NCBI RefSeq assembly: GCF_030253575.1
Contig: NC_080564.1
Location: 5,996,501-6,060,500 of the forward strand
Reading direction: 5' to 3'
Length of the DNA stretch: 64,000 bases
From: Rhododendron vialii
Taxonomy: Eukaryota; Streptophyta; Magnoliopsida; Ericales; Ericaceae
The notes under the pieces are model-generated. The model was not told where the DNA came from and searched no databases. It worked only from the letters and a program-made list of their open reading frames with translations. The translations under genes were made by a program, and so were the position numbers. This document shows positions 4,649 to 13,225 of this stretch, in pieces. The stretch's first letter is position 1. The number at the start of each line of letters is the position of its first letter.

Positions 4649-5581
4649 TCACGCGTATAAAGTCCTAATTCCTTGTATATCATCGGCATTCAAACCTTTG
4701 GTTGTTGCTGGAGGAATGGAAGGCCACATGATAGCAGCTTGGACATTGCTATGTCCAAGTCCAAGAAGGTGCCCGATTTCATGCAAGGCCACAGTCTCCA
4801 GATGATACGAACCCGCAACCGGGTTCACGGAAAATGAATGGTCTGCGTTGTAGTGAAACTTTCCATCGGTTGGGGCGAAAGCATGGGCCAGGGCACCATT
4901 TCGCCCAGCGAACGGTGCCCCATCCCCATGGTTGCCACGGTAGAACCCGATTTTAAGATCTGCACTCGCAAAGTTTTGACTCTGAGAGAATCTAAATTGT
5001 GTTTGGGAAGCCCATGTGTTGAATGCTCTGGCCACGGCGGATATGGCATTCGAGCTGGTTCCAGGAGCAAATGCGTAAGTGAGCTGGTACCGAGTTGGAG
5101 GCCATTTCAAGTTACCGGGAAAGAAAGTGAAATGAGAGACAGTGTGGATATTGCTGTGGGTGTGATTGGCCTCTTTTTTGCCTCCTCGCATCCAGTTGGT
5201 GCCGTTAATGATGTCAGGGACCCCACATCGAGGGGTCATCATTTGGGACACAGTTTGGGCATCTAAAGCTCCAGTTGTCTTTAGATGGTAATTGAGCTGG
5301 TATGTTTTGACGGCAGCCTCCAAGGAATCGTCGAAATCATCGTCGTTTGCATGGGCTTGGTTAGGGGAGTAGTTCAAATAACCAAATGCCTCAAGATATT
5401 TCTTGAGTTGTTGGAGGCCTTTTACTGTCTCGCCTTTGTGGCATCCTTCCAAATGCTTAATGAAGTCGAAGGATGTTGGGTTTTCGGCCCTGGGTTTTGA
5501 TGGCCTTGCATGAGAGGGGAGAGGAAGGGGTAATGAGACGAGGAAAATGCATAAGAAAAGCTGAAATACTTTTGTTTCCAT
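4649..5581 (-). CDS. Matrix metalloproteinase (matrixin, M10A), secreted
   Basis: Zinc endopeptidase of the plant MMP family, expected in the apoplast. The 310-residue protein starts at 5581, because the Met there begins a clean signal peptide (METKVFQLFLCIF, hydrophobic to about residue 24). An in-frame Met 22 codons upstream would bury that peptide. Order: signal peptide, peptidoglycan-binding-like propeptide (about 38-115, with the SFDFIKHLEGCHKG block), cysteine switch PRCGVPD at 117-123, then catalytic domain with HGDG near 218, zinc site HEIGHLLGLGHS at 267-278 and Met-turn Met285. It ends at QGIRTLYA with no hydrophobic C-terminal anchor, as in soybean SMEP1 and unlike the longer GPI-type plant MMPs. 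Intronless, as usual for this family. It is about 70% similar to the gene at 11253, so the two are local duplicates. Family assignment is secure; the substrate is unknown. Confidence 0.96.
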   Translation of the reverse strand: METKVFQLFLCIFLVSLPLPLPSHARPSKPRAENPTSFDFIKHLEGCHKGETVKGLQQLKKYLEAFGYLNYSPNQAHANDDDFDDSLEAAVKTYQLNYHLKTTGALDAQTVSQMMTPRCGVPDIINGTNWMRGGKKEANHTHSNIHTVSHFTFFPGNLKWPPTRYQLTYAFAPGTSSNAISAVARAFNTWASQTQFRFSQSQNFASADLKIGFYRGNHGDGAPFAGRNGALAHAFAPTDGKFHYNADHSFSVNPVAGSYHLETVALHEIGHLLGLGHSNVQAAIMWPSIPPATTKGLNADDIQGIRTLYA

Positions 5582-5656
5582 TTCTTTTGGTAGAGGGAAG
5601 CTAGTAGCTAGTTGGGTACTTGGTGGATTTGTGAATTTGAATCCCATGTCTTAGGC

Positions 5657-5668
5657 CTATTTATAGAC
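5657..5668 (-). promoter_or_regulatory. TATA box of the first MMP gene
   Basis: On the minus strand this reads gtctataaatag, about 75 bp upstream of the chosen ATG. That leaves room for a 5'UTR of about 45 bp. The following bases, gcctaag, are shared with the second MMP gene at 11165-11172, so this is the ancestral promoter of the pair. Confidence 0.7.
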
Positions 5669-10012: not shown

Positions 10013-10025
10013 GTCTATAAATAGG
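10013..10025 (+). promoter_or_regulatory. Displaced TATA box of the second MMP gene
   Basis: The sequence gtctataaatagg matches the TATA box of the first MMP gene base for base (gtctataaatagg there too). In that gene it is followed directly by cctaag. Here the continuation is found at 11167, 1.14 kb away, because an LTR element inserted between the two. Confidence 0.75.
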
Positions 10026-11161
10026 TGTTTGTACCACAATTAAGATTTCCATTTTTACCCGTCGATCTGGCGACACGTGGCAAGGGTAAATATGGGCAAG
10101 TAGGAGAATAGAATGGACTTACCTTAATAATTTAGAATCGATAGTGAAACTACAAAAAGTCATGTCCGTCGATTGGCCTACGCGTGGCGTATTCCGAGGG
10201 CCCTGTGATCCGTCGATCAGGTGACAGCTGTCAAAGAGGAATTAGATCCCATGATCCCACGATTGAAGAAGATGGTAACCGCAATTAACAAGGCAACTTT
10301 CTCAACGTGGGCATGATCGGCAGTTAGAGAAAGTTCTTAATCAAAATTCGGGGGAATGTTCAACTGCCACTTTGGAGGGAAGATTTGAATTCAAATGTAA
10401 GGAGGCCTATTTAAAGACAAGTTGTAACACCTCGTCCCACATCGGAAGTCTACATAGATGATTTTGGGCATATAACAAGCCTTGTGGGCTACTACTAGTA
10501 CCTTGTGCTTAAGCTTTTGGGTCATGTGGTGTGGCCTGTGGATCAAAATCAGGGTACTGGGCTAGTGGTCACGACCATGTGGGCCTTGGAGTTTGGTTTG
10601 ATTTAGTTGTTGGTTTGATTTGTATTGGTGATTATAGTGCTCAACCCCTCGCGAGGGCGCGAGGCTATGAAGTTGGGGAGATTGTAACACCCCGTCCCAC
10701 ATCGGAAGTCTACATGGATGATCTTGGACATATAACAAACCTTGTGGGCTACTACTAGTACCTTGTGCTTAAGCTTTTGGGTCATGTGGTGTGGCCTGTG
10801 GATCAAAATCAGGGTACTGGGCTAGTGGTCTGCTTGGGGCGTTACACAAGTTAGTAGCAGTTTCAGGGACACACAAACAACGCCAATCAGGCCTTTATCT
10901 TTTCTTTTCTGGGAGTAGAATTAACTTGTAATTGTTCACTCAATCATCTCGATTGGATGTTCTTCTACTTTGAGGGTTAATAAAGTCCAATTTGTTAATC
11001 TTCTTCCATACTTCATCCACTTCATTGTTTGTTTCCAAAGAAGTCCTGAAATACGGCAAGGAACCAAACTCCACTTTTCACACCCACATTCCAGCAAACC
11101 TCGAATACAATTTCCCATCGATTCTCCGTCGATTGGAAAGAAAACAAGAATTTTGGTAACA
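10026..11161. mobile_element. Solo LTR inserted at the TATA box of the second MMP gene
   Basis: A block starting TGTTTGTACC and ending GGTAACA is flanked by perfect 5-bp target-site duplications, ATAGG at 10021-10025 and at 11162-11166. No gag, pol or second LTR is present, so this is a solo LTR. It contains three variants of a 'cgtcgat...acacgtggc' motif (10059-10230), its own TATA-like cctatttaaag (about 10407) and a candidate polyadenylation region (ttaataaag near 10978). These traits suggest a Gypsy-type LTR, but the lineage is uncertain. A smaller LTR element is nested at 10423-10846. Confidence 0.82.
10423..10846 (+). mobile_element. TRIM-like miniature LTR element, nested
   Basis: Starts TGTAACACC, ends GTTACA, and is flanked by perfect CAAGT duplications (10418-10422 and 10847-10851). 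It contains two direct repeats of about 147 bp, at 10423-10569 and 10683-10829, period 260, about 95% identical. The first copy lacks the terminal 16 bases present in the second. Either it is a complete miniature element with a clipped 5' LTR, or one LTR with an internal duplication. It has no coding capacity. Confidence 0.83.
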
Positions 11162-11252
11162 ATAGGCCTAAGTCATAAGAAGCAAATGCACAATCCATCA
11201 GATGCTTGCATTTGCTTCAGGTTCAAGCATAGAAATTCCCTCTAGCTCAATC

Positions 11253-12194
11253 ATGGCAGCTAGAATTTTCCAGCTCTGCTTATGCATTTTCTTCTTCACC
11301 TTGGCCTTTCCACTCTCCTCTCATGCAATCCCATCAAAACCCAATGCTAAAAAACCATCATCCTTTGACTTCATCAAGCATTTGGAAGGTTGCCATAAGG
11401 GTGAAACAGTAGAAGGCCTCCAACAGCTCAAGAAGTATCTTGAGAAACTCGGTTATTTGAACTATAACCACTCCCAAGATCAAAGCCATGCCAACGATGA
11501 CGATTTTGATGACTTGTTGGAGGCTGCTGTCAAAACATACCAGCTGAATTACCATTTGAAGGCCACCGGAACTCTAGACGCCCAAACAGTGTCTAAAATG
11601 TCTAGCCCTCGATGTGGAGTCGCTGATATCGTCAATGGCACCAATTGGATGCGAGCGGGAAAAAAAAGGCCGAATCATGGCCATAACGCTCTCCACACAG
11701 TGTCCCATTACGCTTTCTTTGAGGGTAACCCGAAATGGCCTGCTTCTCAGACCCACCTCACGTACGGGTTTCTACCCGAAACCAAACAGGATGCAAGAAA
11801 CGCCGTGGCCAGAGCATTTGACAAATGGGCTTCCGCAACACAATTTACATTCTCCCAGAGCCAGGACTTTGGAAGTGCAAATCTTAAAATCGGGTTCCAC
11901 AGTCGCGATCACGGGGATGGTCACCCATTCGATGGTCCATTGGGGATCCTGGCTCATGCGTGGGCCCCAACCGACGGGAGGTTTCACTACGATGCGGACG
12001 AGACATGGACTGTGGGTCCCACGCCAGGTGCGTTCGAGTTGGAGACGGTGGCATTGCATGAAATCGGACACCTTCTCGGGCTAGGGCACAGCTCGGTTCC
12101 GGATGCTATCATGTACGCGAGCATTGATCAAGGGGTGGCCAAAGGTTTGCATGGAGATGACATACAGGGTATAAAGGCTTTATACAACGTTTGA
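11253..12194 (+). CDS. Matrix metalloproteinase (matrixin, M10A), secreted
   Basis: 313-residue zinc endopeptidase, paralogue of the gene at 4649. The start at 11253 is preferred over an upstream in-frame Met because MAARIFQLCLCIFFFTLAF is a signal peptide that aligns with the paralogue. Order: signal peptide to about 24, propeptide with SFDFIKHLEGCHKGET, cysteine switch PRCGVAD at 119-125, catalytic domain with HGDG near 220, HEIGHLLGLGHS at 269-280, Met-turn Met287, and the end at IKALYNV with no C-terminal anchor. All catalytic and zinc-binding residues are present, so the enzyme should work. Intronless. The ancestral promoter is split by an LTR element, so expression may now depend on the LTR or on sequences after 11162. 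Transcription start not determinable here. Confidence 0.96.
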   Translation: MAARIFQLCLCIFFFTLAFPLSSHAIPSKPNAKKPSSFDFIKHLEGCHKGETVEGLQQLKKYLEKLGYLNYNHSQDQSHANDDDFDDLLEAAVKTYQLNYHLKATGTLDAQTVSKMSSPRCGVADIVNGTNWMRAGKKRPNHGHNALHTVSHYAFFEGNPKWPASQTHLTYGFLPETKQDARNAVARAFDKWASATQFTFSQSQDFGSANLKIGFHSRDHGDGHPFDGPLGILAHAWAPTDGRFHYDADETWTVGPTPGAFELETVALHEIGHLLGLGHSSVPDAIMYASIDQGVAKGLHGDDIQGIKALYNV

Positions 12195-12569
12195 TTTGTG
12201 ATTTTGAAATTCAGAAAAAAGGCTTCTTGGCAAGCTGCTAATTAATAATGGAACAATGATTGTAGTACAGATTATATAAAAGAATAAAAGGTTTTGGCTT
12301 ATTAGTTGGAGTGTTAGGTTTTCCAGAATTGCAGCTGTAGAATATCCCTTCATAAATTTCACTCGATTTGGTTCGTATTAGTTGGCCTTTGGTCTCATAC
12401 TCTCATTTGCTTTGGCAGTAAAACTAGAGCTCAATGCTAACCTAAGTATTTCTTTTGTTAGAGCATCAACCATACTTCAAATCTCCAAACTCGTTCTTCA
12501 AATTCTCATTTTGTTCTTCATATATGGAGACTCCTCTAAATTATATAGAATGTTGTTCGTACTCCAAAA

Positions 12570-13225
12570 GTCCCTCTAACTCAATCATGGCAAGTAAGGT
12601 TTTTCACTTCTGCTTGTGAATTTCCCTGTTATCGAATCACCATGATTCTTCCACTCCAGTCCTACGGATAAAAATTCCGCCCCTCCGAATTTATCAAGCG
12701 TTTGGAAGGAGAACAGTTATTCAGGGCCCTCGGGCCACCGTGCCACCATCACATAGTGTCGCCCGTTTCTGCCGCACATTGGTACGGGCCCAAGACAAAA
12801 TGTGTATACCCCACACCAAATGTGCGGTAAGAAAATGAATAATCTCTCAAGGAAGGATCGATGCAAAAGGGTGGTCGGTATGGTAAAAAGTCTCCTCCAG
12901 CTCAACGCATATCTTGTGAAACTTGATTATCCGAGAAAACGGACCTTTTGCAACACAATTTACATTCTTCCAGTAGACTTAAAACATGTTAATATCATAA
13001 TTGGGTTCCATCCCAGGTCACATAATCCTAAGACCCTCCGTTTAAGCTCATCATAGTTCTCAATTTCAGCCCTTGTGAATTTTGTTGCAATTTGAGACGA
13101 TTTCGAAAGTTGTTTTTTCACGCTCGCGCTCTCATTCACGCATACGCACGGGAAGATGATGGTTATGCTACTTTTGATCATGGGGATGGGAGCCCGATTG
13201 GGTGTATTGCTCATCGATCGGCACA
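12570..13225 (+). pseudogene. Decayed third matrix metalloproteinase copy
   Basis: Fragments in gene order match the MMP gene at 11253. They are the start region 'ctctaactcaatcatggcaa' (12574), the propeptide stretch 'tttatcaagcgtttggaagg' (about 12691), 'ctcaacgcatatcttgtgaa' (about 12900), 'caacacaatttacattct' (12951), 'attgggttccatc' (about 13001), and 'catggggatggg...attgctcatcg' (13179-13215). Between them are deletions, at least two unrelated insertions (about 12715-12880 and 13021-13170) and an early stop 12 codons after the ATG. The zinc-site region is gone. A short second copy of 'cttttgatcatggggatggg' sits at 13381. The order and 0.4-kb spacing from the intact gene show that the family expanded in tandem. 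Confidence 0.85.

Follow-up and report, generated by a model that had tools for sequence, protein, structure and literature searches.

The second MMP gene in the window (the whole analysed stretch of 64,000 nucleotides, C8:5996501-6060500) carries a solo LTR between its native TATA word and its leader, and this LTR is itself interrupted by a TRIM-like element that begins just past the LTR's own TATA-like word. With transcription starts placed by prediction, two nested core promoters are split in the same way, upstream of a coding region that is still intact. On balance, we consider that native expression of the gene has probably been lost or strongly reduced. The features of the gene, of the outer insertion and of the comparison gene are as follows:

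4649-5647, minus strand: first MMP gene (ORF), the comparison gene with an empty site; TATA word at 5656-5667
10014-10025, plus strand: native TATA word TCTATAAATAGG of the second MMP gene; the TATA-leader junction is unbroken in 12 other MMP loci
10021-10025, plus strand: left target-site duplication ATAGG of the outer insert
10026-11161, plus strand, in gene orientation: outer insert, a solo LTR (Ty3/gypsy, Tat-like) of 1136 bp including the nested element and 707 bp without it
11162-11166, plus strand: right target-site duplication ATAGG of the outer insert
11167-11252, plus strand: displaced native leader, from CCTAAG to the conserved ATG, with an extra in-frame ATG at 11202
11253-12194, plus strand: intact MMP coding region of 313 aa in one open frame, with the cysteine switch PRCGVAD and the zinc motif HEIGHLLGLGH

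The sequence-only reading of this stretch had described a 1136-bp TG...CA insert between the end of the TATA word at 10025 and the resumption of CCTAAG at 11167, flanked by a perfect ATAGG duplication. Re-reading of the sequence returned exactly these coordinates, as well as both copies of the duplication, and the termini of the insert are TGTTTGTACC...GGTAACA. The classification of the insert as an LTR element also proved correct, as its ends match those of a dispersed LTR family; the insert is not a chance arrangement because its ends coincide with the family ends and 19 of the 20 family sites with both flanks seen, the window included, have perfect duplications. The coordinates place the native TATA 1237 bp from the ATG, against 96 bp without the insert and one copy of the duplication. 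The exact word TCTATAAATAGG occurs at two places only in the window, and three matches, against 0.49 expected, appear if one mismatch is tolerated. The claim that the core promoter was parted from its leader stands insofar as the TATA-leader junction is interrupted; more precisely, the TATA is parted from the transcription start. At the right junction, positions 11157-11166 read TAACAATAGG, with 8 of 10 letters as in the lost TATAAATAGG, since the insertion duplicated the second half of the TATA word. This sequence was considered as a rebuilt TATA and judged too poor a TATA box.

The genome holding the window (532,647,506 bases in 13 contigs) was searched with the MMP protein, which gave 33 matches and a cluster at C8:5.67-6.01 Mb. 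Upstream regions were read in gene orientation at 18 MMP loci, the second MMP gene being one of them. The TATA word is joined straight to a similar leader in 12 other loci, 71-93 bp before the ATG, as the exact TATAAATAGG in nine, TATAAATAAG in one and TATAAGTAGG in two. Eleven of these loci belong to the C8 cluster, and the remaining one, L061, is on C2. An in-frame stop is present in L061, while L067 and L069 match the protein partially in one frame. The first MMP gene carries the same TATA word without an interruption (5656-5667, minus strand), as had been proposed, and both MMP genes of the window align across the TATA-leader junction once the insert is skipped. At five of the 18 loci read (L062, L063, L066, L068 and L070, all more distant MMPs), the TATA word is absent at that position. 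The 12 unbroken paralogous junctions are a genuine empty-site comparison within the same genome.

The C8 cluster consists of L051-L060, L064-L065, L067 and L069, which have closely similar core promoters; ten of its MMP loci are matched near full protein length without stops, and partial copies are present as well. The zinc motif varies within the cluster, being HEIGHLLELAH in L058 and HEIGHLLGLAH in L053, L057 and L060. Just downstream of the intact gene, positions 12567-12623 and 12950-12973 of the window resemble the beginning and a later portion of the MMP coding region, and are probably the remains of a third, degenerate MMP copy. Among the eight papers listed by a literature search on matrix metalloproteinases, Rhododendron and tandem duplication, none presents this MMP cluster in its title or the start of its abstract.

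The LTR was compared with its family in two parts. The 397 bp on the 5' side of the nested element match at least 40 places (the best 40 scored of 158 candidates), and the last 310 bp of the LTR also match at least 40 (the best 40 scored of 553 candidates). Among the matches of the 397-bp search, at least 13 pairs of places represent both LTRs of a single element, bounded by matching duplications and spaced 13.2-13.3 kb apart in eight pairs and 4-24 kb in the other five. Target-site duplications were read at 27 sites, at seven of which one flank was seen; the only imperfect duplication among the remaining 20 is that of L083/L103, with one base different. L013, whose 5' LTR begins with CG and not TG, was counted as having a perfect duplication, whereas a script with fixed boundaries gave unequal copies. 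Solo-like LTRs were found at seven of the 27 sites (the window, L002, L011, L014, L083, L097 and L099), and the duplications are perfect in five of the six found among the 26 other sites. The window copy is a single LTR with both termini and no internal region, with ATAGG on both sides.

A 3.5-kb internal piece of a full-length relative, L081, located outside the window, encodes RVT_1, RT_RNaseH, RVT_3, Integrase_H2C2 and rve, in this order. Tat elements are described as carrying reverse transcriptase, RNase H and integrase in this order, and a further RNase H (aRH) next to the native one (Biryukov and Ustyantsev, PMC10508981). Judged by the domain order in this one relative, the putative parent of the solo LTR is a Tat-like Ty3/gypsy element of about 14 kb. 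The LTR at 10026-11161 looks mosaic: among the matches listed, L002 is closest to its 5' half (95%) and L011 and L014 to its 3' half (97-98%), as if it came from recombination or template switching between subfamilies. It contains one TATA-like word and one AATAAA:

10059-10234, plus strand: three imperfect 25-bp repeats (CCGTCGAT...) upstream of the LTR TATA, one of them with the G-box CACGTG at 10074-10079
10408-10415, plus strand: LTR TATA-like word TATTTAAA; TATTTAA in 20 of 20 aligned LTR copies, the window included
10979-10984, plus strand: AATAAA resembling a poly(A) signal of the LTR; 20 of 20 aligned copies, the window included

Within the LTR lies a second element, which was overlooked in the earlier note, where the insert was taken for one LTR element of 1136 bp:

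10418-10422, plus strand: left target-site duplication CAAGT of the nested element; right copy at 10847-10851
10423-10846, plus strand: nested TRIM-like element, TGTAAC...GTTACA, 424 bp, with the end of the 5' LTR and the primer-binding site deleted
10423-10570, plus strand: truncated 5' LTR of the nested element, broken after 148 bp
10670-10682, plus strand: polypurine-tract-like AAGTTGGGGAGAT before the nested 3' LTR, read from the sequence
10683-10846, plus strand: 3' LTR of the nested element, 164 bp

The two halves of the outer LTR abut in each of the 19 other copies examined, 14 of which were also seen in a second listing restricted to plus-strand loci. This empty site indicates that the TRIM-like element entered the LTR later than the LTR's own insertion. 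The search of the genome with the TRIM LTR gave at least 46 matches (the best 40 scored, of 610 candidates). Of the 20 extents read, one is the window copy, nine are elements with two LTRs, five are longer arrays and four are single LTRs; the last is a truncated copy. The nine two-LTR relatives are 465-476 bp long, with 4 clipped bases added back, which leaves no room for coding genes. In L024, the one relative read at this point, the 5' LTR is followed by TGGTATCAAAGCC, which we take to resemble an initiator-Met primer-binding site; the window copy is without it and has lost about 41 bp there. The family duplications are perfect at 10 of 18 sites, CAAGT of the window included. Short LTRs, a length of a few hundred bp, a polypurine tract and a 5-bp duplication are all found, with the primer-binding site seen in L024, and these characters point to the nested element being a deletion derivative of a TRIM-like family. 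Its LTRs hold TATAAC at 10471 and 10731. Some of its relatives form arrays, like tandem TRIM arrays such as those described for Cassandra (PMC7215508), two of them with a 302-bp period. These two, L026 (C6:25.90 Mb) and L037 (C6:26.09 Mb), are near-identical five-LTR arrays about 190 kb apart that share the same 50-bp flanks, which identifies them as a putative segmental or assembly duplication.

Plant transcription starts roughly 30 bp past the first T of the TATA. With starts taken at this distance, both insertions fall between TATA and start, as the LTR begins 10 bp past the first T of the native TATA and the nested element 15 bp past the start of the LTR TATA (10408). The start set by the native TATA would be near 10048 and that set by the LTR TATA near 10440. 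From these positions, 18 and 10 ATGs, respectively, precede 11253, and 17 and 9 of them open short upstream frames that close before the MMP frame. The only upstream ATG whose frame does not close is that at 11202, which is in frame with MMP and adds 17 residues. Inserted DNA holds 16 of the 17 closed frames, and the 17th, at 11186, belongs to the native leader. Moreover, a transcript from either TATA would cross the AATAAA of the LTR at 10979.

The two landings between TATA and start suggested TATA-directed integration, which the flank counts, being near background, did not support. TATAAA, TATATA or TATTTA within 30 bp was found at 2 of 47 LTR-family sides (27 sites, the window being one of the two), compared with 63 of 1762 (3.6%) in the background (binomial P 0.51). 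For the TRIM family, such a word was present at 3 of 36 sides, the window included, against a background of 107 of 2631 (4.1%; P 0.18). The TRIM flanks came from 18 of 30 fetched loci, leaving out L032 (no 5' end), L037 (nearly identical to L026) and ten loci that are additional LTRs of elements already counted. Pooling the LTR and TRIM sides before the extra flanks were added gave 5 of 60 (P 0.08). The 5-bp duplications of the LTR family show G or C at the first base in 23 of 27 and at the last base in 24 of 27, and ATAGG of the window fits this preference at the last base only. Sequence choice explains the double landing less well than coincidence or accessibility does.

Between the LTRs of the nested element, 5 of 148 positions are different, which corresponds to 1.3 million years (Poisson range 0.4-3.0) at a rate of 1.3e-8, the rate used in PMC5437302. 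The terminal branch of the window LTR is 0.028, or about 2.1 million years. Part of this time precedes the insertion, and the value is inflated by the different nearest relatives of the two halves (L002 for the 5' half, L011 and L014 for the 3' half), which is also why dating from the complete LTR was rejected as unsafe. The LTR pairs of seven relatives are 0.9-2.6% different, equivalent to 0.3-1.0 million years. By this generic rate the insertion event appears young, about one to two million years old, and the MMP paralogs are estimated to be far older than the insertions, with dS of 0.79-1.07 between the second MMP gene and nine of them.

The dN values for the same comparisons are 0.19-0.22, which indicates long purifying selection on the coding region. 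Together with the retained catalytic motifs, this counts against a loss of native expression, though most of the time under selection must predate the apparently young insertion. The coding region had been called intact in the sequence-only reading, and one open frame with the catalytic motifs kept was indeed found; the protein has the domains Peptidase_M10 and PG_binding_1, with the propeptide cysteine switch and HExxHxxGxxH of plant matrixins. An intact ORF was rejected as proof of function, as neutral survival is not improbable: in simulations with assumed indel ratios of 0.05 and 0.1, a neutral ORF survived with a frequency of 0.53-0.64 at d 0.0055, 0.14-0.25 at d 0.017, 0.04-0.10 at d 0.028 and 0.01-0.04 at d 0.04. 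At the upper age bound, d 0.04, survival this low would argue that the gene is in use.

The substitution spectrum was analysed as a footprint of methylation. C>T/G>A changes account for 6 of 15 substitutions in the window LTR and 124 of 208 in other copies (p 0.18), and under two other settings for 2 of 8 versus 116 of 200 and 1 of 6 versus 105 of 175 (p 0.08 for both). The share is 44 of 61 among the LTR-LTR changes of seven two-LTR relatives of the outer LTR, 4 of 5 between the LTRs of the nested element and 17 of 25 in nine two-LTR TRIM relatives. The window LTR is, if anything, poorer in such changes, which leans against heavy methylation and is not significant.

Taken in order, an LTR retrotransposon entered between the native TATA and the leader of a gene of the local MMP cluster and left a solo LTR, which a TRIM-like element then entered past the LTR TATA. 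The output of the native promoter would be lost or strongly reduced, since a transcript from either TATA crosses AATAAA and 17 or 9 closed upstream frames, and the coding region would still be intact owing to the recent date of the event. Expression could, however, be restored by a promoter that the TEs supply within the last 500 bp.

Insertions of this type are already well documented in grape, citrus and wheat. For VvMYBA1 of grape, the full Gret1 element is reported to block expression, while the solo LTR allele is expressed (PMC10249860). Both loci have a Ty3/gypsy element that was reduced to a solo LTR close to the start of an intact gene; unlike Gret1 as described there, the window LTR lies between TATA and start and carries a second insertion. 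In blood orange, an LTR gives Ruby a new transcription start, according to a meeting report (PMC3520747). There too the LTR lies in the 5' region of the gene and solo LTR forms exist, whereas the core promoter of the window LTR is itself interrupted. In wheat, a TRIM 309 bp upstream of the start is reported to activate Ms2 (PMC5437302); like the window TRIM it is a short non-autonomous LTR element in a promoter, but the latter lies inside a solo LTR and has its own primer-binding site deleted.

Ruby and Ms2 (PMC3520747, PMC5437302) are the precedents for the explanation ranked second, in which a promoter in the LTR or the TRIM took over and a chimeric TE-MMP transcript has a new expression pattern. 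We regard it as possible but doubtful. Both elements are in gene orientation, the TATA-like word conserved in all 20 LTR copies is accompanied by a G-box, the TRIM LTRs add their TATAAC words, and the MMP ORF and motifs are intact. However, simple LTR-driven expression, which the sequence-only reading had named beside silencing as a possible outcome, is weakened because the TRIM cuts the LTR TATA from its start region, and a transcript from the LTR start would meet AATAAA and nine closed upstream frames before the MMP ATG. It is unlikely that the native TATA still drives the gene, with the TEs read through and the long leader spliced out or tolerated: the TATA word is preserved together with its upstream junction, but the inserted DNA holds AATAAA and all but one of the closed upstream ATG frames. 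Slightly less likely again is an insertion specific to a haplotype or to the assembly, with the gene normal on other chromosomes of the species; the comparison covers one assembly of 13 sequences, yet the perfect duplications and the later nested insertion argue against an assembly error, and the nested element is old enough for its LTRs to have diverged. Least probable of all is a serial capture, in which the solo LTR would have become the open, active promoter of the MMP gene and the TRIM would have entered the LTR's TATA-to-start gap because it was exposed, so that the promoter was replaced twice by TEs.

Loss or strong reduction of native expression therefore remains the reading we prefer. 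Among the closely similar promoters of the MMP cluster, one is cut between TATA and start and contains a TE promoter cut likewise, so that the locus offers a clean natural test of the requirements of a plant core promoter. Expression of the gene would probably mean a new start in known TE sequence; if there is none, a protease gene has been caught during its loss.
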